A DNA stretch of 64,000 nt from Lachnospiraceae bacterium JLR.KK008. Its GTDB lineage: Bacteria; Bacillota; Clostridia; Lachnospirales; Lachnospiraceae. Both the position numbers and the translations under genes were made by a program. Position 1 is the first letter of the stretch, and every line of letters begins with the position of its first letter. The notes beneath the pieces are model-generated. The model saw only the letters and a program-made list of their open reading frames with translations. It was not told the DNA's origin and searched no databases. The DNA lies in contig CP143548.1 of NCBI GenBank assembly GCA_037015955.1, forward strand, positions 3,094,001 to 3,158,000, written 5' to 3'. Shown here piece by piece: positions 11,734 through 26,800 of the stretch.

Positions 11734-13116
11734 TTAACGAAAAACAAACTCTGCCTTTCCAAACTGAAGCAGATCTCCCCTTTTCAGTTTTATTCTCTCA
11801 TGGGGCTCCAAAGGGAGGTCATTAAGAAGTGTACCATTGGTGGAGTGTAAATCCTCGATATAGATGATTCCCTCTTCTTCTGTCAGTTTTGCGTGAATTC
11901 TACTGACAGTATGTTCCTTTACTGCAAGATTCACCCGTTCCTTTTCTTTTCCAATCAAAAAGGGATAAGATGGAATCGGATATTCTTTTTCTGCTCCTTT
12001 TTTCCTCTCGATCAGACTATATTCCCGGTTTAATAACGATTTTCCTACATAGATGGTTCTGCCATCTGCCTGTTCTGTAATATTCCCGGATGAATTTTCA
12101 TGAAATTTTTCTTCCGTGTATGGTGTCTTTTCCATTTCCCATTGCCACAACTCCGTTTCTTCTCGGAAAGAATCTCTCCTGTTATCATAATTTGCTCCAC
12201 CTTGGGCTCTGTCCTTTGTTTTCTCTCTCCGCTCTCTTGCGCATCCCCAAACAGAAATGATCATTCCTGAAACAAAAAACAATGACGATATTGCAATCCA
12301 CAAAATTTTTTCTCTGTTTGTAAAAATAAAATAATAATCTGCAAGTACAAGAAAAGCGACTGATAACAAAGCCATGATCACACTGACAAGACCGGCTTCT
12401 GTTTTTTTCCCGTTTTTACTATTCCAGAAATCTGTTTTTTTCATTCCCTCACAGAACTTTAATTCCTTTTCTATTTCCGTATCGATTGTTGTTCCTGTCA
12501 GCGTTTTCCTGCCAGCGTATGAATTTTCTTCTTTTTCCTCTTTTGTTTCTTGCATTTCTTGTCTGTCTTCTCTGTTTCTTTCCAGACGATCTTGCAGCTC
12601 GCGCACAGAAATCTGTTCTCTGCCTGCGCTATCATAAAAGAAATAGGCAAGTTCCGCTGTCTCTGTCTCTTCATGGTTGACCCTCTCCAGTACAAACTGT
12701 GCCAGTTTTATCATGCTGCTCTCTTCTCTCTCCTCTGTCAGATCAAAAAGAAACGCAGCCTTTCCAGTATCCATATTTATATACAGGTATTCCGGTTCAA
12801 AACAGAGTTGTCTTCCATCAAGCAAATATTTTTCCACTTCACTTATAACAGTTATTACTTGCAAAAGCAGAGTATGCAGATCACTGTAACTCATTTCCTT
12901 TACCGAATAGACCTGTTCCAATGTATGAAAAGAACTAATCTCATACCATACTTCCCGTTGACCTTCTGTCAGCCGCACCTCACATTTTGCCAGCCCTTTT
13001 ATATTACTTCTCAGTATCATTTGTCCGCAGTAACTATCGATTAAATTTTTATTACAATCCTCTGCGATCATATAACTTCTTTGCAACTCTTTTCGATACT
13101 TTATATTACCTTTCAT
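11734..13116 (-). CDS. FHA-domain protein with N-terminal DUF6382, end of the Tad operon
   Basis: A 460-residue protein started at 13116, where ATG overlaps the TadE stop codon (ATGA) behind an AGGAAG site. Residues 1 to about 190 match the DUF6382 type (YMIAEDCNKNLIDSYCGQMI). Two hydrophobic helices lie about 247-293, then a charged linker, and a C-terminal FHA domain (about 385-460) with the SRIHAKL and HSTNGTLLND motifs that bind phosphothreonine. No Ser/Thr kinase is in the window. Its place as the last gene of the Tad operon suggests a phosphorylation-dependent scaffold at the pilus base; this is inferred. Confidence 0.85.
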   Translation of the reverse strand: MKGNIKYRKELQRSYMIAEDCNKNLIDSYCGQMILRSNIKGLAKCEVRLTEGQREVWYEISSFHTLEQVYSVKEMSYSDLHTLLLQVITVISEVEKYLLDGRQLCFEPEYLYINMDTGKAAFLFDLTEEREESSMIKLAQFVLERVNHEETETAELAYFFYDSAGREQISVRELQDRLERNREDRQEMQETKEEKEENSYAGRKTLTGTTIDTEIEKELKFCEGMKKTDFWNSKNGKKTEAGLVSVIMALLSVAFLVLADYYFIFTNREKILWIAISSLFFVSGMIISVWGCARERREKTKDRAQGGANYDNRRDSFREETELWQWEMEKTPYTEEKFHENSSGNITEQADGRTIYVGKSLLNREYSLIERKKGAEKEYPIPSYPFLIGKEKERVNLAVKEHTVSRIHAKLTEEEGIIYIEDLHSTNGTLLNDLPLEPHERIKLKRGDLLQFGKAEFVFR

Positions 13117-13595
13117 CTCTTCCTTTCTTCCTGAAGCCAGTCCCATATTCCCTTTGTTTTTCTGCAGTTTCTAATAAAAGTGACCGGCTGCCACTTTTGT
13201 GCACTCTGTTTCTGTTTCCCTTTCCAAATGGACTGAAAAAATTGCCCGGCAGGCGCATACATATTAAGTTCTGTGCTGACAGTAACGGTTCCCCATGTCA
13301 CATTTTTCTCATTCTTTGCACTACCACATACAATTTTCTTTTCCACACTGTGTTCATATTTTTTCTCTGCCAGCTCTCTTTTTTCCTCTACTGTACCTGC
13401 CAGTCTCTCTGTACGGAGAGCCGTGCAGTAGCTTCCCTGTAACATAACACTTTGATCGTAAAGAAAAAAAGACAGGTAAAGCAAATTCCAGATCAGAAAC
13501 ACAATCAGTGGCAGCAGATACGCCGCCTCTATCGTATATCCCGCTTTCAGTTTTCGTTTTTGTCCACTTTGTAGTTTTTTCTCAATCCGGAACAT
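13113..13595 (-). CDS. TadE-like minor pseudopilin
   Basis: A 160-residue bitopic protein. A short basic N-terminus (RKLKAG) leads into YTIEAAYLLPLIVFLIW, the prepilin-like signature with a glutamate five residues after a glycine cleavage site, then one membrane helix and an extracytoplasmic domain. TadE/TadF proteins of this kind are minor components of Flp pili. It follows the second prepilin peptidase by 9 bases with a GAGGAGG site, and its stop overlaps the FHA gene's ATG. Confidence 0.78.
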   Translation of the reverse strand: MFRIEKKLQSGQKRKLKAGYTIEAAYLLPLIVFLIWNLLYLSFFLYDQSVMLQGSYCTALRTERLAGTVEEKRELAEKKYEHSVEKKIVCGSAKNEKNVTWGTVTVSTELNMYAPAGQFFQSIWKGKQKQSAQKWQPVTFIRNCRKTKGIWDWLQEERKR

Positions 13596-13604
13596 TTTTC
13601 CTCC

Positions 13605-14039
13605 TCATACTATTATCAGTGATAAGATCTGTATCAGAAACGCTGCCATCAAAAATGGTACGAATGGCAATGTCGTCTTTCTTTCAACCTTTCCTGTAAA
13701 AAACAACACAATCGTACATATGGCACATAAGAAAAGCCCCACAAGAAACAAACTTATATTTTCAATGCCCGTCAAGAATAATCCTGTCACAGTGATTATC
13801 AGCCCGTCTCCATAACCAATCTGTTCCCCGGAAAACTTTGCAAATAATAATATGACCAGACCTGGTATCATTCCCGTGATCCATATTTGCCAGGCAGCAT
13901 GAAATATGATATTTATCAATATTCCGATAGTACCAAAGAAAAAGAGCCATCCCACTTCTATTTTTCTGGTTTTTATATCCTGCCAGGTGCCAATCAATAA
14001 AAATACAACTGTCAGCCCATAGCGGAGCATCTGCTGCAT
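13605..14039 (-). CDS. A24 prepilin peptidase (second copy in the locus)
   Basis: A 144-residue membrane aspartyl protease with about five helices. Both catalytic aspartates are present: WQDIKTRKI near residue 20 and the GYGDG (GxGD) motif near residue 77. It lacks the N-terminal methyltransferase and zinc region of long PilD enzymes, like other TadV/CpaA-type peptidases. It would cleave the leaders of Flp and TadE-type prepilins. The start at 14039 has GGAGG 9 bases upstream and overlaps the previous gene by 28 bases. A sister gene opens the operon (20941-21369). Confidence 0.85.
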   Translation of the reverse strand: MQQMLRYGLTVVFLLIGTWQDIKTRKIEVGWLFFFGTIGILINIIFHAAWQIWITGMIPGLVILLFAKFSGEQIGYGDGLIITVTGLFLTGIENISLFLVGLFLCAICTIVLFFTGKVERKTTLPFVPFLMAAFLIQILSLIIV

Positions 14040-14980
14040 GGCCGTCTACCTCCAGTCTCTGAAATTGGAATTGTATATATCGTTCTCTTTAATCCATTGC
14101 ATTGTAAGTTTGTATGATAACGATTACCCTGATCTGTCAGATAAACACTGCCTGTAGGATGTTTCCCACAGTTTTCACAAGGATAATATTTCTCTCCACT
14201 GTCATTTCTGAGAACACCCAGACTGTCTGTATTTACGGACCGGATCGAAAGAACGAGATGGGTACAATTTCTATTTTTATGGTATACCGTACCTGTCTCT
14301 GTGACGAAGACCAGTTCCTCTTCCTCATTCTCCTGTCCGTCATATTCGAGTCGATATCCGGTCCATGCTTTCATCTGACAGCTGTTTGCCATTGTAAATT
14401 CTGAAAACCCCAACAGATCTATTAAAGGTCTTACCTTATAGGAGAGTATGAGATTCACCATGTCCTGAGCATCTTCCTGCCCTTCATAAACAAGGTGAAT
14501 GCCACTGCTGCCTCCTTCTATTACAGAATGGTCAAGATATTCTCTCCCCGCCCTCTCTATCACTTTTGATCGCAGATATGCCTGTTCCAGAAAAATAAAA
14601 ACCTCTGAATCCATTTCCGCACCGATAGTCTCATAGGCATAGGCCTCTAAAGATGCCTGTGTAATCTCCTGATGCAGCGCTGCTTCCAGTGCACTGTGAA
14701 GTTGTAGAATACTGATAATCGAAATGATCTGAATGCAGAAAAACAGGAATAGTGGAAGAACACAGGCAGCCTCCACCGCAATACTGCTCTGTAAAGGAGG
14801 AAAGAGAGACACGTTCCTTCCGGTACAAATGATATGTTTTAGAAAATAATTTTGCTTTTTATAATACTTGTTACAATCAGGATACTGTGAAATATTTGGA
14901 CATGATTGGGGGCCTGTCCAACTGAGATTGTTTGATAGAACTCCTTTCCGAGAAATTTTTGTGATCCGAAAGAAACGCAT
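14012..14980 (-). CDS. TadE-type pseudopilin with duplicated C-terminal Cys-rich (Ada-like) modules
   Basis: A 322-residue protein. About 55 polar residues precede a prepilin-like segment (QSSIAVEAACVLPLFLFFC, about 65-85) with a glutamate at the expected place and one membrane helix. A TadE-like extracytoplasmic part follows. The end holds two similar modules: VYHKNRNCTHL ... YYPCENC (about 232-273) and RYHTNLQCNGL ... PCSRC (about 285-318), each giving His, Cys and a CxxC pair as in Ada-type metal-binding domains. The long pre-helix region is unusual for TadE. A strong AGGAGGGAGGAG site precedes the ATG. Confidence 0.75.
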   Translation of the reverse strand: MRFFRITKISRKGVLSNNLSWTGPQSCPNISQYPDCNKYYKKQNYFLKHIICTGRNVSLFPPLQSSIAVEAACVLPLFLFFCIQIISIISILQLHSALEAALHQEITQASLEAYAYETIGAEMDSEVFIFLEQAYLRSKVIERAGREYLDHSVIEGGSSGIHLVYEGQEDAQDMVNLILSYKVRPLIDLLGFSEFTMANSCQMKAWTGYRLEYDGQENEEEELVFVTETGTVYHKNRNCTHLVLSIRSVNTDSLGVLRNDSGEKYYPCENCGKHPTGSVYLTDQGNRYHTNLQCNGLKRTIYTIPISETGGRRPCSRCSAMG

Positions 14981-15000: not shown

Positions 15001-16443
15001 TTATTTAAGATACCCTGCCGTCCTCTTGATCAGACAACTGTACCCTGTACCAGAACGAATCGTCATCTCCGCAGTAAAACTGTGAATACATTGATCCATA
15101 CGAAAGTTCTCATTCCCTGGTGTCTGTCTGATATTCATTTCAATAATATCCATAAAACGCAGGTTCCTCTGCTTTTTGTCCGAAACAGCCAAAAGTACAT
15201 GCAAATATTGTTCATAAGAAAGCCCTTCCCCGGTACTCTCATCTTCTACTTCCAGCTTTAAGGCATTTTTGAGGCTGAGCTTCCAACTATCCCCGTCTTT
15301 CCAGATCGGTACACTGCCGCCATTTAACAGAATTGTCACATCATTGACACTCTCCGCATAAGCCCAGCCAATTAACAGAGACAATTTGATCAAATCCTTT
15401 AACTCCGGAAAGAAGATCACAACTGCCAATGCGGAAGCTACCGCCTCTGCCTGCGCTTGTTTCCCGGAATCACTTAACAGATAAATAAAGTTTGCCGTTT
15501 CCCGTATGACAAGTAATTGATTTACGACATTCTGCAGATTTTCCCTGTCAGAACATTTTCCTGACAGTATATACTCCATCTCATAATCAAGACGAGACCC
15601 CTCTTTCAGATCCGTATACTTTCCACATGTTTCCATAATGTACTTTTGAAAGATCATATCTTCCGCTCCTGTTACGTCTTTCTCTCCTGACAGAAATCCG
15701 TCTCTTTCCTTATAATCTCTATGAGATATGTAATCCTCCAGACAAATTTCTTTATCTGATACCGCTTTCTCTTTTGTCACAGTTTTCAAAATACGAGAAC
15801 TTCCTCTTCTGCTGTTTATTTTATCAGCCGGATTATTGATTGGTATCTTTTTCTTTTTCCCTTCTTCATCTTCCACTGTCGTATCTACCGAACGAATTTT
15901 TTCTTCATTATCCTCCCTCATCCTCTCCATTTTGTCACTGATCAGTTCTTTCCTTTTTATTTCATCTGTATCTCTACTAATATGGGACAGTTTTTGAGAT
16001 AAATCGAGCAATTCATATCGATCCAACATATAATCGACAGCCTTTCTTTCCAAAACTTCCGCATTATCATCTAATGCGCCTGCTGCCTCCAGGATCAAAA
16101 TAGAGTCTGTGGATAATTGCAGTAAATCTCTGATTCCATCCGTGTAACTACTTTCTTCCAAATGAAAATTTTTATCCATGTAATGTAAAATATGTTGTTC
16201 CAGTAATTCATAGCCGGATTTTTCTGTTCCATAACCAATATCTATAAAAAAGAGCTCATATTGTTCCAGAAGTTCCCGGTTATATTCCGCTAATGCAGAT
16301 TGAAGCGCCATATCTGCCACACACTCTGCCTGGAATTGTACGGCATTTGTTCTAGCCGCTTCGATCACCGTAAACAATACGGAGATCATTATTACCAACA
16401 CCAGTGAAAGAAAAACTGTTATTTCTCCTTTCTGTTTTCTCAT
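15001..16443 (-). CDS. DUF5702 protein, large TadG-like pseudopilin
   Basis: A 480-residue protein with a short basic N-terminus (MRKQKGEITVFLSLVLVIMISV) that reads as a prepilin-type membrane anchor with Glu in place, followed by a long extracytoplasmic region (DUF5702). The start at 16443 is preferred to an adjacent TTG because the ATG overlaps the Flp stop (TGATG). Length and position recall TadG, the large minor component that anchors the Flp pilus to the envelope; that role is inferred. The middle (about residues 160-250) is highly charged and low in complexity. Confidence 0.75.
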   Translation of the reverse strand: MRKQKGEITVFLSLVLVIMISVLFTVIEAARTNAVQFQAECVADMALQSALAEYNRELLEQYELFFIDIGYGTEKSGYELLEQHILHYMDKNFHLEESSYTDGIRDLLQLSTDSILILEAAGALDDNAEVLERKAVDYMLDRYELLDLSQKLSHISRDTDEIKRKELISDKMERMREDNEEKIRSVDTTVEDEEGKKKKIPINNPADKINSRRGSSRILKTVTKEKAVSDKEICLEDYISHRDYKERDGFLSGEKDVTGAEDMIFQKYIMETCGKYTDLKEGSRLDYEMEYILSGKCSDRENLQNVVNQLLVIRETANFIYLLSDSGKQAQAEAVASALAVVIFFPELKDLIKLSLLIGWAYAESVNDVTILLNGGSVPIWKDGDSWKLSLKNALKLEVEDESTGEGLSYEQYLHVLLAVSDKKQRNLRFMDIIEMNIRQTPGNENFRMDQCIHSFTAEMTIRSGTGYSCLIKRTAGYLK

Positions 16444-16613
16444 CAATAGATACTACTGCTCTTTGTGGTTATTTGAGAGAAAATATCATTGACAAGTGCT
16501 GTAAGCTGATCTTTAAAAATAATGACAAGCGTAATCAGTACAACCAAAATCAATATCATTTCTACGGTTCCAATTCCTTCTTCTTCTTTTAAAAATCGAA
16601 TTAATGTACTCAT
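16443..16613 (-). CDS. Flp-type type IVb pilin
   Basis: A 56-residue pilin, the likely major subunit. The basic leader MSTLIRFLKEEEG is followed by IGTVEMILILVVLITLVI, placing glutamate at +5 of the mature protein if cleavage occurs after the glycine, as in Flp/TadV systems. Aromatic Tyr at +6 is replaced by Met, as in other clostridial Flp1 proteins. AGGAAA lies 7 bases before the ATG at 16613; longer in-frame readings lack a ribosome site. A 100-base gap separates it from tadC. Confidence 0.85.
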   Translation of the reverse strand: MSTLIRFLKEEEGIGTVEMILILVVLITLVIIFKDQLTALVNDIFSQITTKSSSIY

Positions 16614-16713
16614 ATTATTTTTCCTTTCCTGTTCAGCCTCTTTATTGTTATCTGCATCTTTTAATTCTTTTTGGTTTATTTTTTCCCTAATCTGTTTCTT
16701 TTCGCCTGCTCTT

Positions 16714-17985
16714 TTACACCCCAAACGACGAAAATGCCGGTATCACGATAATAATCATAATCAGTATCAACAGGAATGTCATAGGCAACAGGAGTTTTGT
16801 CCCGGCCTCCTCTCCGCAGCGTTTTGCACGCTCTTTTCTCTCCTGCAGCGCCTGATCCGTCTCATTTTTCAATGCTCTTTTCAATCCACCTGCACCACTT
16901 TGCATATACTGCACCAGCAATGCTGTAAATCGTACGATGCAGGGAAGTCCACACCTCAGACCCATATTTTGATATGCCGTTCTCTCCGGAATTCCGGCCT
17001 CCATTTCCCTGCATGTAATGAGCATTTCTTCATAAAGCATGATAGTTTTTTTGTTTTTTCTTTTTTGGTAGCCCGCTGCTATTTTATGAAATGCGCCTGA
17101 AATCGTCATACCGGTTCCAGCCAGCATTGTCATTCTCATTACCATCTTTGGGTACTCCCGCTCTATAGACGCGGCTCTCGCCTTTTTCTTTTTTTCTATT
17201 TCTTCCTGCTGTGCAAGCACCAATAATACTCCTGCCAATATTGACATCAGAAAAACTGTACCGCTGATTTTTTTCTTACGATTATAAAATCGAATCTCTT
17301 TCCCTTCAAATTGCTCAGGTAAAAAGTAACTGATCTGTTCCCGGCTTTCCGTTTCTAATTGTTTGAGCTTACGTTCCAACCTCTTCCAAAATTTTTCTCT
17401 GTCTTTAGATGGATACAGTTTTACATAAAAAATACGTTCCTGTTTGAATGTTCCTCGCTCCACAGATATGTCTGCCTGAATTTTTACAAGAGCCCCCTCC
17501 TGAGGAATCTCTTCTCCTACTTTCCCGTCTGATGACAATAAATCTTTTTCACTGCTCACCCATTTAATCACAAAAGGAAATGATTCCACTCTCTCTGGGA
17601 AAAACAAATCTTCTGTGACATAGTCAACAGTATTGTTTTGTCCGGGAATTTCTTTTTCCAGATTCTCCCACATAATTTCAGATAATTTTTCTAATTCTAT
17701 CTGACTGTACTCCTGCGGAAAAATCTCAACCTGTACTGTTCCTTTTTCTCCCTCCGCTTCAACCTCCAGTTCTACTGTCTTTTTCGTCCCTGATTTCTCT
17801 TCCCTTATCATTTCTGTCATTGTAGACTTATGATCTCCTGTCAAAAACATGATTTCGAGGAAGGCAGCTGCCAGACTTCCCGCTAATAAAATCACTGCAA
17901 CTTTCTGATCTGTCTTTTTCTTAACCAGTAAATACATCCCAATGAAAAACGTTGTAATATAAATTGCCATTGCGATCATATTCAT
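16714..17985 (-). CDS. tadC: Type II secretion F-domain protein, TadC
   Basis: Inner-membrane platform protein of the Flp pilus machine. About 423 residues: two N-terminal helices (about 5-20 and 33-48), a long soluble part (about 60-230) unusual for TadC, a further helix (about 240-258), then the GspF/TadC domain with helix-breaking TMLAGTGMTISGAFHKIA and a final hydrophobic helix. The start at 17985 gives an ATGA overlap with the tadB stop; an ATG two codons later has better ribosome spacing. Confidence 0.82.
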   Translation of the reverse strand: MNMIAMAIYITTFFIGMYLLVKKKTDQKVAVILLAGSLAAAFLEIMFLTGDHKSTMTEMIREEKSGTKKTVELEVEAEGEKGTVQVEIFPQEYSQIELEKLSEIMWENLEKEIPGQNNTVDYVTEDLFFPERVESFPFVIKWVSSEKDLLSSDGKVGEEIPQEGALVKIQADISVERGTFKQERIFYVKLYPSKDREKFWKRLERKLKQLETESREQISYFLPEQFEGKEIRFYNRKKKISGTVFLMSILAGVLLVLAQQEEIEKKKKARAASIEREYPKMVMRMTMLAGTGMTISGAFHKIAAGYQKRKNKKTIMLYEEMLITCREMEAGIPERTAYQNMGLRCGLPCIVRFTALLVQYMQSGAGGLKRALKNETDQALQERKERAKRCGEEAGTKLLLPMTFLLILIMIIIVIPAFSSFGV

Positions 17986-18764
17986 ACCTCGATTCTGATA
18001 ATATGGAGAGAAAGTCCTACTGAAAACAGGTATAGAAGAAGACATCCTGTCATAATACAGATTCCTGCAATATTATGGTAAAGGGGAGAAAAATATAGGG
18101 GAGAAGTAACCTGAATATAAGATATGATTGCGAAAGGCGCCAGACACATAATCTTCTGTTCCATTGATTTTCCATGTAAGAGCGTATGTATTTCCTGTTC
18201 CACCGCAGCTTTCATTGTAATGATCCCACAGCAGTTGTCTATCATCTCATTTAGATTTCCTCCCGTTCGTTTTCCAACTTCAAATACATCTGCAAAATTA
18301 CGAATATCTTCAACTCCGCTTCTCTGGGCAAAATCCCACAAGATATTTTCCAGGGTCACATTATTGAGAATCTGCTGCTTCATGTTTTGCACCTCAGTTT
18401 GAATATCTGTCTTATTACCATATAGCAGTTTTAACTCGTCCCCTGCTTTCAGAAAAGCATTTTCCACCGAATATCCCGAACGCAGACAAGATGCTGTCAC
18501 TTGAATCCAGTCTTTAAACTGCTGCTCCAATATATATTGTCTTCCTCTGCACAATTCTTTTTTCTGCCAACTGCAATAAAGTATCGAGCAGAAAATCCCC
18601 GGAATCAACACATATACTGTTTTGTAAAAGAAATATAAGATCAGACTGCCGACTATAAATCCTGTCATTCCATATTTTATCGTCTCTTTATGAGAGAGAC
18701 GGTAGATCCGGTAATCCTGCTGCCTTGAGCTTTTGCTTGAATGATAATTCTTTTTTAAATACAA
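17982..18764 (-). CDS. tadB: Type II secretion F-domain protein, TadB
   Basis: Partner platform protein of TadC: 260 residues, N-terminal helix pair (about 35-60), GspF-type core (SGYSVENAFLKAGDELKLLYG ...) and two C-terminal helices. The TTG start at 18764 is preceded by AAAGGAGGT with 12-base spacing, inside the end of cpaF, giving a 77-base overlap; an internal ATG at about residue 33 would remove it but has no ribosome site. The overlap implies tight coupling with the ATPase. Confidence 0.8.
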   Translation of the reverse strand: MYLKKNYHSSKSSRQQDYRIYRLSHKETIKYGMTGFIVGSLILYFFYKTVYVLIPGIFCSILYCSWQKKELCRGRQYILEQQFKDWIQVTASCLRSGYSVENAFLKAGDELKLLYGNKTDIQTEVQNMKQQILNNVTLENILWDFAQRSGVEDIRNFADVFEVGKRTGGNLNEMIDNCCGIITMKAAVEQEIHTLLHGKSMEQKIMCLAPFAIISYIQVTSPLYFSPLYHNIAGICIMTGCLLLYLFSVGLSLHIIRIEV

Positions 18765-19947
18765 GCTGCCCTGTTACCTCCTTTCTCTGATTCTCTGATG
18801 TCTCTTCAAAAATACAGAGCGTTTCCAATCTGATCTCCTCTCCGTCCATCCCTGCCACTTCCGCAATTTCTAAAACTTTTCTCGTCTTATCGCGAAGTCT
18901 CCCAAGATGAATAATAATATCGATTGCAGACGCGATCTGCCGACGTATTGCAGATACAGGCAGGTCCAACCCCATCAGCGCCATTGTCTCCAGTCTCGAC
19001 AGCATATCTCTCGCACTGTTGGCGTGTGCGGTAGACAATGAACCGTCATGACCGGTATTCAGGCATTGCAGCAAATCAACCGCCTCCCCTCCTCTGACTT
19101 CACCGATAATCAATCTCGTCGGCCTCATGCGCAGACTCGTACGGATCAGATCCCGGATTGTAATTTCCTCACATCCTTCCGCATTGGCATTTCTTGTCTC
19201 CAGTCTCACCAAATTCGGTGCATTCTGAATCTGCAGCTCCGCACTGTCTTCGATCGTAATGATCCTCTCCTCCCGCGGAATATAATCAGACAGCGCATTT
19301 AAAAATGTTGTCTTCCCGGAACCGGTTCCGCCGCTGATCAATATATTGTATCCTGCACGGACAAGCAATTCCAGCCACTTTGCTGTTTCTGCCGTAAGCG
19401 ATCCAATCTCGATCAGCTTTTTCATATTTACAGGTTCTTTCGGAAAACGACGAATTGTCATCACAGGTCCGTTTAAAGCGACCGGCCGCAACACGATATT
19501 GACACGCGAACCATCTTCCAGTCTGGCATCCACAATAGGAGAAGCCTCATTGACGACACGATTACATTTTGCTGTGATCTGCTGAATAATATCTTCCAGC
19601 TTTTCCCGTGATGAGAATGAATTTTCCCATAAATACAAAGTCCCACTTTTCTCAATAAATATATGGTCGGGTCCATTGATCATAATCTCCGTGATTTCTT
19701 CATCCTCAAGAATCTCCTGTAAAATGTCCAGTTTCCGAATGGCATAGAACAGTTCTTTTCCGAGTTTTTCTTTTTCCTTTAAACTCAGATAATCCTGATG
19801 TCCATATTCTGTCAGACTTTCACCGATCAGTTTCCTGATCTCCGTCTCTTCCATCTCTCTGGAATAATCGATTTTTTCATGGATATGCTGTAGTAGTTTT
19901 TCTTTTATTTTCTTGTCCTTTTTAAAACTTTTATTTTGATCATACAC
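18688..19947 (-). CDS. cpaF: CpaF/TadA family pilus assembly ATPase
   Basis: Hexameric secretion ATPase that powers Flp pilus assembly. The 419-residue protein shows the N-terminal helical domain (LSLKEKEKLGKELFYAIR), the Walker A ISGGTGSGKTTFLNAL at about residue 203, the Asp box, the Walker B IIGEVRGGEA and the histidine box TGHDGSLSTAHANS. All catalytic motifs are intact. Its ATG overlaps the tadZ stop. Confidence 0.95.
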   Translation of the reverse strand: MYDQNKSFKKDKKIKEKLLQHIHEKIDYSREMEETEIRKLIGESLTEYGHQDYLSLKEKEKLGKELFYAIRKLDILQEILEDEEITEIMINGPDHIFIEKSGTLYLWENSFSSREKLEDIIQQITAKCNRVVNEASPIVDARLEDGSRVNIVLRPVALNGPVMTIRRFPKEPVNMKKLIEIGSLTAETAKWLELLVRAGYNILISGGTGSGKTTFLNALSDYIPREERIITIEDSAELQIQNAPNLVRLETRNANAEGCEEITIRDLIRTSLRMRPTRLIIGEVRGGEAVDLLQCLNTGHDGSLSTAHANSARDMLSRLETMALMGLDLPVSAIRRQIASAIDIIIHLGRLRDKTRKVLEIAEVAGMDGEEIRLETLCIFEETSENQRKEVTGQLVFKKELSFKQKLKAAGLPDLPSLS

Positions 19948-20944
19948 GAAATTCTTCCTCCACCAACTTTCTCACATAGTCCGCCAGATCTCCATAGGTG
20001 TATTGTTCCATTTCCATTGGTATATTACGGATAAACGGGAGTTTATATTGCAGCGTCTTCTCCGCGACATCTTCATAGTCAGTACGTTCCAGCAATCTTT
20101 CATACTGACAGAGCTTAGCGGCAGCAGCGCTGTCTTCCCGGATCAGTGTAAATACTTTTTCACATCTGCGGAGTATTTCGAATAATCCCTGCAGATTGTC
20201 CGATAAATCGAGAATCAGAAATTCGTAATCCGTATGTTTCTCCAGTTCTTTAAACAACAGAAACCATTGCTCTAATGTAATGCGCGCCAGATCCATATAG
20301 GAGAAGGCCGGAGGAATATAATCAAGATTTTGAATTGTTTCTGTCATCCCTTTTAGTTTATAAAAAAGCGCATCTCTCGCATTGGTCACATAATAGATTA
20401 GATCTGACATATCTGTCATAAACTCTCTGTCCATGCGCTTGTCAAATCCGGAGAAACTCTCAAAATTCAAATACAATACTCTGTGATCTCTGGCAAGGAT
20501 CTCCCCGAGTGTGATTGCAAAGCTCGTCTGCATACTGCGGTGAACCGGTGTATACATTCCGATCATACGTATTTTGTTTTTTCTTGATTTCAAAACTGCA
20601 GGCTCTGATTCCGGCCTGGATCCGGCATAATATTGTATGGCCTCCTGTAATATTTTCCCGCAGGGCTGGTATTTATAAATCTGTTCTGTTTCCCCTTTTC
20701 TGTCCTTCTCTTCGCTTAAAATGATCACATCTCCTTTGATCCACTCTTTCAATGACAGATCATAGCTGTTTTCTGCAACCAATAAAATATCTACAATCTC
20801 TTCTCTGCAAAATGTTTTCAGCTTTTCTCTGGAAGTAAAAGCGGCAGCCTCAAATGGATACTCTGACTTATCGCTTACATAGTCACAAAAGCGTCTTACA
20901 TATTCCGCCTCTGTGTCAAATACAGCAAGAATCTGTTTCTTCAA
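19940..20944 (-). CDS. tadZ: TadZ/CpaE-like ParA-superfamily protein, degenerate P-loop
   Basis: About 334 residues: an N-terminal receiver-like region (about 5-110) and a ParA/MinD-like domain that localises Tad machinery in other bacteria. The nucleotide loop reads YTPVHRSMQTSFA and lacks the GKT of a normal deviant Walker A, so it is probably a poor ATPase or a non-hydrolysing scaffold. Start: an ATG at 20950 abuts the AAGGAGG site; the TTG two codons on (20944) has 8-base spacing and overlaps the upstream stop as TTGA, so it is preferred. Confidence 0.78.
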   Translation of the reverse strand: MKKQILAVFDTEAEYVRRFCDYVSDKSEYPFEAAAFTSREKLKTFCREEIVDILLVAENSYDLSLKEWIKGDVIILSEEKDRKGETEQIYKYQPCGKILQEAIQYYAGSRPESEPAVLKSRKNKIRMIGMYTPVHRSMQTSFAITLGEILARDHRVLYLNFESFSGFDKRMDREFMTDMSDLIYYVTNARDALFYKLKGMTETIQNLDYIPPAFSYMDLARITLEQWFLLFKELEKHTDYEFLILDLSDNLQGLFEILRRCEKVFTLIREDSAAAAKLCQYERLLERTDYEDVAEKTLQYKLPFIRNIPMEMEQYTYGDLADYVRKLVEEEFRV

Positions 20945-21369
20945 ATCCATCCCTCCTTACACAAAACAAATAAAATACCACCCACCAGGGGACCCGACAT
21001 GGGAATACGTTTTCCCAGACATAGTTTCTTTTTTAAAACTAACAGTAACACCGGAAACAGAGCGAAATAAACTCCGGCAAAGAATGCGCTCAATGCAAGC
21101 CTCCACGACAAATATACAGCTGTCACACCGAGCAGTTTTATATCACCTGCTCCTAAACTTCCAAGAAGATATAAGGGTAATAAAACGAGAATCATAACAC
21201 TTAGATGAAACAAAGAACATAAAATACTTTGGAAACCATTTTGTCTGATCTGATCAAGAATTGCACATGACAGTGCTGTGAAAATTAACAGATTAGAGAT
21301 CTTTTTCGAATGATAGTCTTCCCAGAGGGCAAAACTTAAAAATAAAAAAAGACTTACAATATGCTCCAC
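20941..21369 (-). CDS. A24 prepilin peptidase (first copy, heads the Tad operon)
   Basis: A 142-residue membrane aspartyl protease, with catalytic aspartates in LWEDYHSKKISN (about residue 17) and in the LGAGDIKLLG (GxGD) motif (about residue 75). It is the TadV/CpaA-type enzyme that cleaves Flp prepilin. The only upstream start in frame is GTG at 21369, which lies inside the GAGGAGG site; the true start may be slightly downstream at a rare codon. First gene of the Tad operon. Confidence 0.87.
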   Translation of the reverse strand: MEHIVSLFLFLSFALWEDYHSKKISNLLIFTALSCAILDQIRQNGFQSILCSLFHLSVMILVLLPLYLLGSLGAGDIKLLGVTAVYLSWRLALSAFFAGVYFALFPVLLLVLKKKLCLGKRIPMSGPLVGGILFVLCKEGWI

Positions 21370-21859: not shown

Positions 21860-22168
21860 ATGAAATCCTATTTCAGCAAAAGCTCCTATGTCGATAAAGA
21901 GGACAACAGTATACTAAACGATATTGCAAAGACCCGTCGCGCTCTTGAAACCGCCTATGCCGGTTTTGAAAACGCCACGGACCCTGACTTGATCGACTGC
22001 TATATTTATGAAGTAAATGCTGTACAGAAACGCTATAAATATCTGCTTCAGGAAGCAGCCAAATTAAATCTGGCAGCAGAGACACCAAAGGCAGAAAATT
22101 TATGCGAGGAATCCCCGGCTCCCCTCGTGCGACAGACTTTCCGTGAGTTTCCCTTTTCCGTAGGTTAA
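21860..22168 (+). CDS. DUF2508 (YaaL-like) protein
   Basis: A 102-residue, mostly helical protein; residues about 12-75 (IAKTRRALETAYAGFENATDPDLIDCYIYEVNAVQKRYKYLL) match the DUF2508 family, of unknown function. The last 25 residues are extra and are read from the antisense of fliS, with which the gene converges and overlaps by 69 bases. GGAAAGGCGG precedes the ATG. Its position next to bofA follows the Bacillus yaaL-bofA linkage. Confidence 0.82.
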   Translation: MKSYFSKSSYVDKEDNSILNDIAKTRRALETAYAGFENATDPDLIDCYIYEVNAVQKRYKYLLQEAAKLNLAAETPKAENLCEESPAPLVRQTFREFPFSVG

Positions 22169-22567
22169 TCCGGCATATACTGTCTGCGTATTCCCCATAA
22201 CAGGACCCGAAGTATCCTCCTGACTCACTGTCCGATAAGCCTCCATCAATTCCGTCATCACTTTTCGACAACGACTGAGAGGTTCTATACTGCCACGGAC
22301 ATCTGCTCCTGCCATTTCTTTATTGATATAACTATATAGCCGGAGCAGATTATGTGCTACTTCGTATCTGTGGTCGAGAGAATTCATCAGCTCGGTGACA
22401 CATCCTCTTGCCTTGCGGATCGCTTCCCGGAATTTATCCCGGTCATTCTGATCCCTGACCGCATCTTCTACATACGCCAGATACATTTCATAAAGTATTA
22501 CGATCAGCTCGCTCTTATTCGCCTGCGTGATCCGCATCGTAAAATTTTTTCTTGCTTCGTCCGTCAT
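22100..22567 (-). CDS. fliS: Flagellin chaperone FliS
   Basis: A 155-residue, helical cytosolic protein that would cap the C-terminal helices of newly made flagellin until export. Features of the family are ITQANKSELIVILYEMYLAYVEDA at the N-terminus and the four-helix core to about residue 125. The C-terminal 30 residues are a poorly conserved tail overlapping the convergent DUF2508 gene. It is 27 bases downstream of the flagellin gene and completes the DUF6240-flagellin-fliS operon. Confidence 0.85.
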   Translation of the reverse strand: MTDEARKNFTMRITQANKSELIVILYEMYLAYVEDAVRDQNDRDKFREAIRKARGCVTELMNSLDHRYEVAHNLLRLYSYINKEMAGADVRGSIEPLSRCRKVMTELMEAYRTVSQEDTSGPVMGNTQTVYAGLTYGKGKLTESLSHEGSRGFLA

Positions 22568-22594
22568 TTTATTTCCCTCTGATCAAAATCCGGA

Positions 22595-23809
22595 TTACTG
22601 AAGAAGCTGCAAAATCTGTGACGGCCTCTGATTTGCCTGTGCCAACATCGAAGTACCAGCCTGACTGAGCACCTGATCTTTCGTATATTCTGTCATTTCT
22701 TCCGCCATGTTCACATCGATAATCCGTGAATAAGCGGCAGTCATACTTTCCTCCGTCGTATCCAGACTCGATACAATATGCTCCAGACGATTCTCATAGG
22801 CGCCGAGACGGGAACGAATATTGGAAATCTCATTGATCGCTTTGGAAATTCTGTCAATCGATTTTCTCGCCTCATCTTCGGTCGAGACGTCCAGATCTTC
22901 GATCGCCAGATTTTTACTGGATACTTTCGGAATCCGAATATCCAAAGTCTGTCCTTCATTAGCCCCTACCTGCATTGTCATAGCGCCAATACCGGTCAGA
23001 TCCAGAACTACAACTTTGTCACCAGGTATATCTCCGGATGCCACCAGGGCTTCCAGATCGATCTCCAATGTCAGAGAGAAACTTTTATCTGCAGTGATTG
23101 TCACAGTGCTCATCTTCTCATCATACGAATAGATCTGATTATCCACTGTCTGCTGAGGAACCGGTTTGCCATGTACATTCATTGTCGCAGTGCCGCCCGG
23201 TCCTGCTGCCGCTCCATTGATCGTCGCACCGGTAAAATAATACTCACCGGTGACTGCATCCTGATAAGAATGTATCTCCAACTCATAGAAACCGGCTCTT
23301 GCTTCATCCGAATATGACTGTATTTTAATCGCAGACGTATTCAGGACCGCATTGGCTTTGTCAGACTTCTCCACATATCCTTTCAGATCAAAGGTGCCAT
23401 CTAATAATATACTTCCGTTATATTCTGTGGAATCGGCGATACGGTCAATCTCTTCCAACAAAGAATCAACTTCCTCCTGAACAATCTGTCTGTCACCGTC
23501 AGACAAAGGACCGTTGGACGCTTTGATGCTCAATTCATTCAGCCTTTGTAACATATCATGCACTTCTGAGAGCGTACCTTCCGCTACACCGATTACGGAA
23601 ATTCCGTCGTTGGCATTTTGCTCGGCTCTTGTCATACTTCTGATCTGTGCATTCATCCTTTTGGCAATGGCAATACCGGAAGGGCTGTCTTTCGCATGGT
23701 TGATCTTATAACCGGAAGACAACTTTTCAATGGAATTGGACAATGCGTTTTCTGATTTTGTGAGGCAGTCATTGGTTATGATTGCCGACATATTAAAGTT
23801 TATTTTCAT
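22595..23809 (-). CDS. Flagellin (divergent)
   Basis: A 404-residue flagellin: conserved N-terminal D0/D1 helices (LSNSIEKLSSGYKINHAKDS and IRSMTRAEQNANDGISVIG), a variable centre (about 140-310) and a conserved C-terminal D1/D0 (GTSMLAQANQRPSQILQLLQ). It is unusual in having SPSGIAIAKRM where most have DDAAGLAIS, and a cysteine at residue 14. The ATG at 23809 lies inside the end of the DUF6240 gene (17-base overlap), with AAAGGGG as ribosome site. It may be a minor or specialised filament protein; no other flagellin gene is in view. Confidence 0.92.
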   Translation of the reverse strand: MKINFNMSAIITNDCLTKSENALSNSIEKLSSGYKINHAKDSPSGIAIAKRMNAQIRSMTRAEQNANDGISVIGVAEGTLSEVHDMLQRLNELSIKASNGPLSDGDRQIVQEEVDSLLEEIDRIADSTEYNGSILLDGTFDLKGYVEKSDKANAVLNTSAIKIQSYSDEARAGFYELEIHSYQDAVTGEYYFTGATINGAAAGPGGTATMNVHGKPVPQQTVDNQIYSYDEKMSTVTITADKSFSLTLEIDLEALVASGDIPGDKVVVLDLTGIGAMTMQVGANEGQTLDIRIPKVSSKNLAIEDLDVSTEDEARKSIDRISKAINEISNIRSRLGAYENRLEHIVSSLDTTEESMTAAYSRIIDVNMAEEMTEYTKDQVLSQAGTSMLAQANQRPSQILQLLQ

Positions 23810-26800
23810 TATAGGAACCCCTTTCTGACTGTTTACGTACGACACTTATCACTGTTTTTGCAATGTTGTAAAGCCTTTTTGTGGAAGTCTGACTCTGCTG
23901 ACCCTGATTCGTCTCTTCAGAAAAGCCGGTGTGCAGATTTTTACGGAAGCCAATATCCATACTCTCTGTCCGCAGACCTGTCTGCTCCAGGCGTTCTCTG
24001 ATCTGCTCCTGCATCTCCTGTAATGCTTCATCGCTTCCCTTCTGGGAACCGATCAAAAATCCTTTTACCTGATCGTCTTCGAGCTGAAGTTTGATGACAA
24101 TCTTTCCATAAGCCTCCATATCCATGGATGCTTCCACCATTCCTTTATTTATATCGGAATGAATCACCTGAAGATGAAGTGCCATCACCGAATCTTCCAT
24201 CATAACCGGAATTTCATATCTCTCGGTGTCCGCCAGTTTTGCTGTAAACGAAACCTGTTTATAGATCAGACCAAGCTGTCTCATATCCAGAGAAGTCACA
24301 TTGTCTGTCTCATACATGGCCTCATCCAATATCTCTTTTTGCGTATCTGCCAGTTTATGATAAGCCTCGGCTGCCTCTTCCCTGCTCTCAAAATTTTCTT
24401 CCAGCTGCGCAATTTTTTCTTCCAGCTGGTTTTTATTATCGACAGAATGCGCATCCGCTTCCTGTCTGATCTTTTTCCAAGCTCCGGACATATCCTGTTC
24501 GCAGGCCGCCATTGCTCTGACATTTTCCAGCGTGACCGGTTCTTCCAACATTTCCAGCATATTCACAGCATTTTTTTCCACTTGCTGCGCCTGTCTGTAC
24601 TGTGCGATCTGCTCTCTCCGGTAAGCGCTGTCTGCCGATCTGTCGCTCTCTGTCTGACGCATTTTCTCGGCAAACGCCTCCAGACCCATAGCTTCATCCA
24701 CTGCCGCCCCAATCAGCTTGTCGGCATCCAGATTGTTATAAATTTCACGACTGAGCCGTCTGTAATAGTCGATTTCCTTTTCCTGTTTCGTTCCCGTAAA
24801 GGCCGCATCAATCTGACTGTCTATCGAAACACCTTTTTCTTTTACTTCGTGCAACACGCCCGTATCGTCATCCACTGCCGTATCCATCCGCTTTGCATGT
24901 GCGGTCCGCACTGCCGTGAGCAAATTTTTAAAGGAAAGCTCACCACCTTGATGGATCAGGCTTCCAATCACTGCCCCGTCGGACTTTTCCACCTGGCGGA
25001 GAAGCCGGTAAATTCCAATGTAAGACTGCTTTTCTTCTTCTGTAATTTCTTTCTTCTGTTCCAGTTTATATAAAAATCTGCTGAACTTCTCCTGTTCCTT
25101 CTGCGGATCGTCCTGCTGCTGTCTGCTCAGATAATCATCCAGCTCTTCCACTGTCATTGCCAGCGGATTTTTACCGTCCCGGATCATTTGCAGAGTGGCT
25201 GCAGGCGTCATCTTCTGAACGACATTGCGCAATGCCTGATCAGCCGCTTTTACTGTCGCTATATTTTCTTCCGTGATCTCCAGTTGATTATAACCAAGTA
25301 TTCTCACGGCTCTCTTATTGGCATCGGTCGTCTCCAGTCCTAATTCTTCCAGCAGACTTTCCGTACTGTCAAACGCTTTTCGGATAGAATCTCCCATATC
25401 ACTGCGCGGAGCGGTCTGGAATGTTTCATAACTCTCATTGGCCTTTTTGTAAGCTAAGGCCAGTGCTTCCCCTTCCTCCCTTACCTGATGCAATGTAAAT
25501 TCAGACTGTGAAACACTTACCCGGCCCACAACTGCTGCCGGCATCTGCGGGATACTTTGAACCGCAGCCGTTGCCTCTTCGTACAGTGCGGCTCTCTCCG
25601 CAGTCTCCTGCGTCCCTTCCCCTCCAAATAAAATCCTGTTTTGCGCATCTTCGACATCTTTCAGAGCCTCTATCACTTTTTCCAGCTCTTGTGTCTCAAT
25701 CGAATAACCGCTCTTCAACAGTTCTCTGTTGGCAGCGATTGTCATCTGTAGTCTGATTTCTTCCAACTGCCTTCTGGCCGCAGCGTTCTCTTCCGTAACA
25801 TGATAATAACCACTTTCCAGTAACCTTTGCGCCGCATCCAGATTGCGCAGTGTCAGGCTCTTTCCCTGACCGGCAGTCAGATCTGCCGCCTGATCTGAAA
25901 GCTCCTGCGTCCGCTTCCAGATCTTTGCCGCCTGTTCCCAGAGAGAAAGAGCTCCTGTCAGATTCGCCCTGGAAGGTTTTTTTCCGTCTGCTACTGCTGC
26001 CGCCATCGCCTGCATTAATGCTTTCTGCCCGATCGGCAGAGAGATATTTTTCATTTCCATATAAGAAGTCAGAGTCTCTTTCGTCAGCGGGATACCGGAG
26101 CTGATCAGCCACTTTGCCCCTTCTTCGGCCTCCGCCACTCCTTCCAGTCCGGCATCTTCAATGATATGATCTATTTGAGATTTTAGTCCGTCCCAGTTAA
26201 AATCTTCCGCTTTTTTTGTCAAATATCCGAGATCGTCCCGATAATAGCCCTTTCCCTGTCTGCCCATCTGCTCCGTACTACTGTACTGTGCCACATAAAG
26301 ATCTTCTATAACCGGTTCTTTTCCGTTCGTAATCATGTATTTGGCAGCATCATCACTTGGCTCTGACAATTTCCCTGCCTCTTCCAATGCCTGAAACGCC
26401 ATTTTTGCAGTCTCTTCCGTGAGTGGCACACCCATCTCAGAAAATGTCCGTGACATTTCTTCTGCCAGTGCCGCATCTCCTGTTATTTCCGTCAGCGTTT
26501 CCATATCGATCGTGTCCGTATATCCTGCTATCGATACCCCAGCCTGCATCAGAGACGCCTTAATCCTGTCTACGATCGTCACGGCAGTCTCCACTTCCGT
26601 ATCTCCCGGTTCATAACCGTTCTCCTGAAGATTTGCAAAGTCTTCATCGGACATTGTATTCGACATAACTGCCATATAGTCGCGCGTCAGAGCAACATTT
26701 TGCCTGCCCGCTTCCTGCATAATCTCTTCTGTCGTTTTTGCATGTCCCTTTTCTATCTCATGGCCGGAAGCTGTTTTCCCAATATCAATCGTATAACCGG

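Follow-up and report, generated by a model that had tools for sequence, protein, structure and literature searches.

A TadE-type minor pilin of Lachnospiraceae with an interchangeable C-terminal head and a tandem pair of modules remotely related to Ada

The question raised by this locus is what two cysteine-rich modules, reminiscent of the metal-binding domain of Ada, are doing at the end of a pilin-type protein that is predicted to leave the cytoplasm. The window, i.e., the whole stretch of 64,000 nucleotides of Lachnospiraceae bacterium JLR.KK008 that was analysed, holds a tad cluster, whose genes follow one another on the minus strand in this order:

20941..21369, minus strand: second A24-type prepilin peptidase (sequence and position only; relatives in 25/44 loci)
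19940..20950, minus strand: TadZ-like protein (weak TadZ-ARD match; position and conservation)
18688..19947, minus strand: TadA ATPase (T2SSE, 194.4 bits; TIGR03819, 295 bits, under that model's cut-off)
17982..18764, minus strand: TadB platform protein (T2SSF)
16714..18045, minus strand: TadC platform protein (T2SSF)
16443..16724, minus strand: Flp major pilin (PF16982, 81.8 bits)
15001..16446, minus strand: DUF5702 protein, TadG-like large minor pilin (PF18960, 297.5 bits), without Glu+5 as judged by eye; immediate upstream partner of the next gene
14012..14980, minus strand: TadE-type minor pilin of 322 aa bearing HCCC modules in tandem (open reading frame and conserved family)
13605..14039, minus strand: prepilin peptidase (A24; PF01478, 28.2 bits)
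13113..13595, minus strand: small TadE-type pilin in the TadF position (TadE, 15.5 bits, under the cut-off)
11734..13146, minus strand: DUF6382-FHA protein, last gene of the cluster (profile match; 44/44 loci)

The gene at 14012-14980 starts 20 bp downstream of the DUF5702 gene, with a strong ribosome-binding site (GGAGGGAGGAG) immediately 5' of its ATG, and its 3' end overlaps the A24 prepilin peptidase gene by 28 bp. Locus content was counted in the 44 loci longer than 16 kb among the 80 loci of relatives that were fetched: TadA, TadB, TadC, Flp, DUF5702, A24, and FHA were each present in 44/44, TadZ in 42/44, and small TadE in 38/44. The 14012-14980 unit is real, conserved, and anchored in its locus.

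Two different A24-type prepilin peptidases (20941-21369 and 13605-14039) are encoded in this one tad locus; perhaps there is a division of labour between them, one serving Flp and the other the minor pilins. Directly upstream of the tad cluster, at 22100-23845, there are genes for a flagellin and for a small protein resembling a flagellar chaperone, both named by eye.

The protein encoded at 14012-14980 is composed of the following parts:

14786..14980, minus strand: leader (residues 1-65; net charge +9), which would lie in the cytoplasm until it is cleaved off
14771..14788, minus strand: prepilin cleavage motif S/SIAVE (cut at the slash) with Glu+5, Glu70 being +5 of the mature protein
14681..14785, minus strand: hydrophobic N-terminal pilin helix (from the sequence; helix 2-55 in the 258-residue AlphaFold model)
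14357..14680, minus strand: pilin stem (helices, three-stranded sheet) ending in the conserved W-x-G (residues 206-208), the point past which grafts are added
14162..14317, minus strand: module 1, with the motif H234-x4-C239 ... C268-x2-C271 and all four ligands invariant
14024..14155, minus strand: module 2, with the motif H289-x4-C294 ... C315-x2-C318, all four ligands invariant, and a conserved LKR

A sequence-only reading of this DNA had described a prepilin-type helix followed by two consecutive His-Cys...Cys-x-x-Cys modules, and the open reading frame, the motifs, and the invariance of the ligands bear this out; the occurrence of tandem HCCC motifs behind such a helix is far beyond chance. 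The accompanying assignment to the TadE-type minor pilins also holds, given the prepilin motif, Glu+5, the positive leader, and the full tad locus. The TadE score of the protein is 17.2 bits (Pfam PF07811), which is under the curated cut-off of 22.9. Its module-bearing relatives L170 and L175 (loci L190 and L191) exceed this cut-off with 33.1 and 28.0 bits, and they are also matched by a stem HMM that was built from residues 65-214 alone. An NCBIfam scan gave no match for the protein.

According to a search with the whole protein, matches are present in 39/61 related genomes at E <= 0.001, and 35/37 genomes of the window's own family were matched at the same threshold, with alignments extending to query residue 319 or further. 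A contig scan of named genomes yielded 342 relatives, of which the best 80 were kept. Both modules were present in 80/80 of the fetched loci (best 80 of 342), a count that is biased because the peptide search patterns lay inside the modules; the whole-protein search is free of this bias, since its query was the entire protein. Judging by their titles, 76 of these 80 relatives are Lachnospiraceae or genera that we take to be placed there, the exceptions being L033, L059, L096, and L107. When 27 sequences are aligned, full invariance is confined to the columns Glu+5, H, C, C, C, G, H, C, C, and C. In a 69-sequence alignment, the eight H/C ligands are all invariant, and four non-ligand residues (R258, N259, K298, and R299) are conserved to at least 90%.

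The two modules are homologous to each other (hhalign 98.2%). PF02805 (Ada_Zn_binding, cut-off 23 bits) had no match to the full protein at E up to 1 and none to the modules alone at E up to 10. In direct profile comparisons, the modules reached a probability of 2-23% with three genuine Ada domains taken from related genomes and 11-46% with exported PF02805-type domains, the latter links being equalled by 1/60 and 4/60 permutations. With module 1 as query, 147 genomes of the class yielded a bridge family, VYITKTGKKYH..C..KSKIPISL..AK..GYTPC..C, which is hosted by secreted metallo-beta-lactamase proteins and by lipoproteins, some of them of the SNase type. The bridge profile, tested with three TadE rows removed (one of the own family and two of other TadE proteins), is linked to module 1 (98.6%), module 2 (98.5%), the exported PF02805-type domains (98.4%), and Ada (93.6%), and for each of these four links 0/60 permutations of all non-ligand columns were as good. 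PDB searches with the exported domains hit Ada chains at E ~1e-5. On the strength of the bridge links, the modules are remote relatives of the Ada metal-binding domain and not PF02805 members; their place in a wider Ada-like superfamily is supported by way of intermediates, and homology to Ada is claimed only through the bridge family because the direct profile comparison is weak. The earlier label "Ada-like" survives in this wider sense, through exported relatives, but not as PF02805 membership or direct resemblance to Ada.

Like the Ada N-terminal domain (PF02805; 1adn, 1u8b, 1zgw, and 1wpk), to which remote homology runs via the bridges, each module has two ligands, an interval of about 20-30 residues, and then CxxC. 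Unlike that domain, the modules have His first, with H-x4-C in place of C-x3-C, occur in tandem, are predicted to be exported, and lack a PF02805 match. Ada_Zn_binding domains use four cysteine ligands, of which the first Cys of C-x3-C is the alkyl acceptor. A ligand His stands in its place and is invariant in the 69 sequences, and Ada-type methyl-transfer chemistry appears unlikely because of this substitution. One structural zinc ion per module is very likely, judging from the invariance of the ligands. A heme-c reading of the CxxC motifs was rejected, as His follows neither of them, and a simple disulfide reading is disfavoured, each module having three Cys together with an invariant His. 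The matches to eukaryotic zinc fingers and PHD domains in the PDB were composition matches, and those to "Pizza" repeats were due to a short VYVT stretch.

The modules share the VYITxxGxxYH..C..CxxC core and export with the exported Ada-like C-terminal domains of secreted metallo-beta-lactamase and SNase proteins; those domains, however, sit on enzymes or lipoproteins and are usually single, whereas modules 1 and 2 form separate sub-lineages. In a tree of 36 modules, module 1 and module 2 are separate and module 2 forms one group (100/100), while the number of graft events is left unresolved by this tree. The genome of the window also encodes an exported metallo-beta-lactamase protein with a terminal Ada-type domain (L111:484-1665, G000:C1 about 976687), whose PF02805 score was 24.5 bits when the genome was searched (cut-off 23) and 20.7 bits when the protein was scanned. 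L139, L181, L183, and L187 are membrane proteins in which an M78-like peptidase part is joined through a transmembrane segment to an Ada-like module; among these four, PF06114 was confirmed for L181 only.

AlphaFold with the 69-sequence alignment gave a mean pLDDT of 88.2, with block means of 82-96 over most of both modules and about 87-96 for most of module 1; the modules modelled alone reached a mean of 88.7. Each is modelled with two strands, a loop, a third strand, and a short helix ahead of CxxC, and we take this succession of elements to be compatible with the Ada fold. Foldseek and VIA-align, run with the full model and the modules, gave no informative match; Ada chains were absent among the matches listed, an absence that is itself uninformative.

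As for the side of the membrane on which the modules lie, the 20 residues before the predicted cleavage site carry a mean charge of +3.9 in 76 relatives, and residues 31-60 after it carry -1.8; the upstream side is more positive than the downstream side in 73/76. Residue -1 of the cleavage site is G or A in 75/76 (35 G, 40 A) and S in the remaining one. The window protein itself has +9 in its 65-residue leader and -6 past the helix. Given this charge asymmetry around the helix, the C-terminal part is predicted to lie outside, and the extracellular position of the HCCC modules is well supported as a prediction. It had been proposed from the sequence before, and the prepilin motif, Glu+5, the positive leader, the tad locus, and the exported relatives all agree with it. 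The domains of the bridge family, inspected by eye, follow a signal or membrane segment where the protein start is visible. The same reading had called an exterior position odd, since Ada domains are known from DNA repair and nucleases; that background stands, but the oddness does so only in part, as the Ada-related branch in question is commonly exported, and an Ada-related domain outside the cell is less surprising than claimed because the branch of the modules usually lies there.

A more interesting result than Ada outside the cell is an interchangeable head on a Tad stem. DUF5702 is present in 58/196 genomes of the class, and the stretch downstream of it was examined in 58/58, with a per-genome tally made by hand. 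A TadE protein with one or two putative zinc modules stands beside DUF5702 in 17/58 genomes (own family 8/8, f26 3/3, f35 2/2, f37 1/1, f68 1/1, f42 2/3). The fusion also occurs in further tad loci of Clostridia, where a check had been proposed; the single-module TadE proteins adjoin DUF5702-like genes in tad loci or fragments, some of them recognised by eye. A TadE-like frame without modules was found in 39/58, and no TadE-like frame was found downstream of DUF5702 in 2/58, namely G156 and G123, the latter ending at a contig end. The stem HMM also matches most of the module-free TadE-like proteins. Several of these continue past the stem into another domain, which contains a "VIPEN" strand, and in L255, L259, and L264 the protein stops at or just past W-x-G. 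Because the same stem carries modules, another domain, or nothing, the stem is shared and the head is interchangeable. The 14012-14980 protein is a modular pilin with a grafted domain, as its stem occurs with this C-terminal domain, without it, and with a different one. An alternative C-terminal domain with a "LIVVIPEN"-like strand, borne on the same TadE stem, was seen in L245, L246, L227, L258, and others, in many other Clostridia.

The family, the locus, the homology of the modules, and the interchangeable C-termini of the stem are direct observations, and the reading that we consider probable is that the protein belongs to the Tad tip as a modular minor pilin whose grafted zinc head sets binding specificity. 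We infer the following course for such a minor pilin of a Tad (type IVc) pilus. The leader would be cut by a prepilin peptidase encoded in the locus. The helix and stem would then join the DUF5702 protein and the small TadE in a tip complex that initiates pilus assembly, as suggested by the KilLMN/TadEFG precedent. The two Ada-related HCCC modules, grafted after the W-x-G of the stem, would each hold one structural zinc, as ligand invariance suggests, and together they may form an exposed pilus head that confers binding specificity.

According to the part of PMC12075869 used here, the tips of Myxococcus Tad pili bear complexes of minor pilins whose domains vary, and the same arrangement is proposed for TadEFG generally. 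The present system resembles these KilL/KilM/KilN and TadE/F/G complexes in its minor pilins, pilin-like stems, variable C-terminal domains, and TadG-like neighbour. It differs in that the complexes covered by that part of PMC12075869 come from diderms, with zinc modules unmentioned there, whereas the graft described here is on a monoderm TadE-type subunit. Modular pilins with grafted domains are also described in the portion of PMC10191384 drawn on here, where Streptococcus sanguinis PilB and PilC, like the present protein, combine a pilin with a domain not specific to pilus biology; unlike this Tad pilin, they belong to the T4aP class and carry other grafted domains. Among the open-licence PMC papers that searches listed, no title or abstract beginning speaks of a Tad pilin with a zinc or Ada module. 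Of the three roles suggested beforehand (zinc-stabilised tip, metal sensor, and DNA contact), the tip head seems to fit the modular-pilin precedent best. Against the tip-pilin reading we count the TadE score under the Pfam cut-off, the long leader of 65 residues, and fold searches that returned no known fold.

It is possible, though we hold this only tentatively, that the zinc modules are a folding scaffold that stabilises the pilin head or the DUF5702 contact and has no outside ligand. This explanation starts from the premise that the host is presumably an anaerobe without extracellular disulfides, and it would account for the invariance of the ligands amid a module surface that is variable in large part, as well as for three Cys and one His per module, which fit a metal better than disulfide pairing. 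However, headless stems exist in related tad loci (L255, L259, and L264), which argues that the stem has no need for the modules, and the four conserved non-ligand residues also speak against a mere scaffold.

That the head is a DNA receptor, i.e., an Ada-related domain on the Tad pilus catching DNA for uptake by ComEA/ComEC, seems unlikely to us. Relatives of the modules are carried by exported proteins, namely nucleases of the SNase type and ComEC-like metallo-beta-lactamase proteins, the genome of the window encodes ComEC, DprA, an orphan PilT, and a ComEA-like protein, and TadA is the only T2SSE-family ATPase found in it besides PilT (26/43 first-look candidates were scored in the survey of this ATPase family). 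Tad-dependent DNA uptake has been reported in Liberibacter, according to the part of PMC8513845 used here. The net charge of module 2 averages +3.0, but the means are -0.3 for module 1 and -3.4 for the stem. ComEC is present in 59/61 genomes, so its co-occurrence is uninformative; by our reading, a PilB-type ATPase is also present in 12/37 family genomes (matches below 1e-113); and the module also occurs on proteins without an evident DNA link, such as a Cu_amine_oxidN1 protein. It is the near-universal ComEC, the PilB in part of the family, and the restriction of basic charge to module 2 that keep our estimate for DNA binding low. The orphan PilT-family ATPase of the same genome (L209:2703-3674, G000:C1 about 1212202-1213173; TIGR01420, 341 bits against a cut-off of 319) is encoded next to a YifB/ComM-like gene and dprA, and it might retract the Tad pilus. 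A broader proposal, which we regard as quite unlikely, is that clostridial Tad tips bear swappable heads on a common TadE stem, that the head of the own family, in nearly all sampled genomes, is an Ada-derived zinc pair capturing extracellular DNA, and that Tad would serve as a DNA-uptake pilus where ComEA, ComEC, DprA, and PilT but no other extension ATPase are found.

It is very unlikely that the modules act as a metal or redox sensor, which would alter pilus behaviour upon zinc loss or thiol oxidation: the predicted exposed, thiol-rich sites, two in tandem, would suit such a role, but HCCC sites are usually tight structural zinc sites, and no signalling partner was identified. Finally, a regulatory tail kept in the cytosol by a reverse topology, for which the unusually long leader of 65 residues and the cytosolic nature of classical Ada domains could be cited, is highly improbable in view of the positive leader, the Glu+5 prepilin motif, and the family of exported relatives.

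With the modular tip pilin as the preferred reading, the finding bears on Lachnospiraceae, which are major gut anaerobes, and in which a putative zinc head is conserved at a defined graft point. The "adaptable tip" idea of Tad pili would thereby reach monoderm Clostridia, in which one shared stem has three or more kinds of ending. DNA binding by the head, if it occurs, would indicate a route for natural transformation in Lachnospiraceae.
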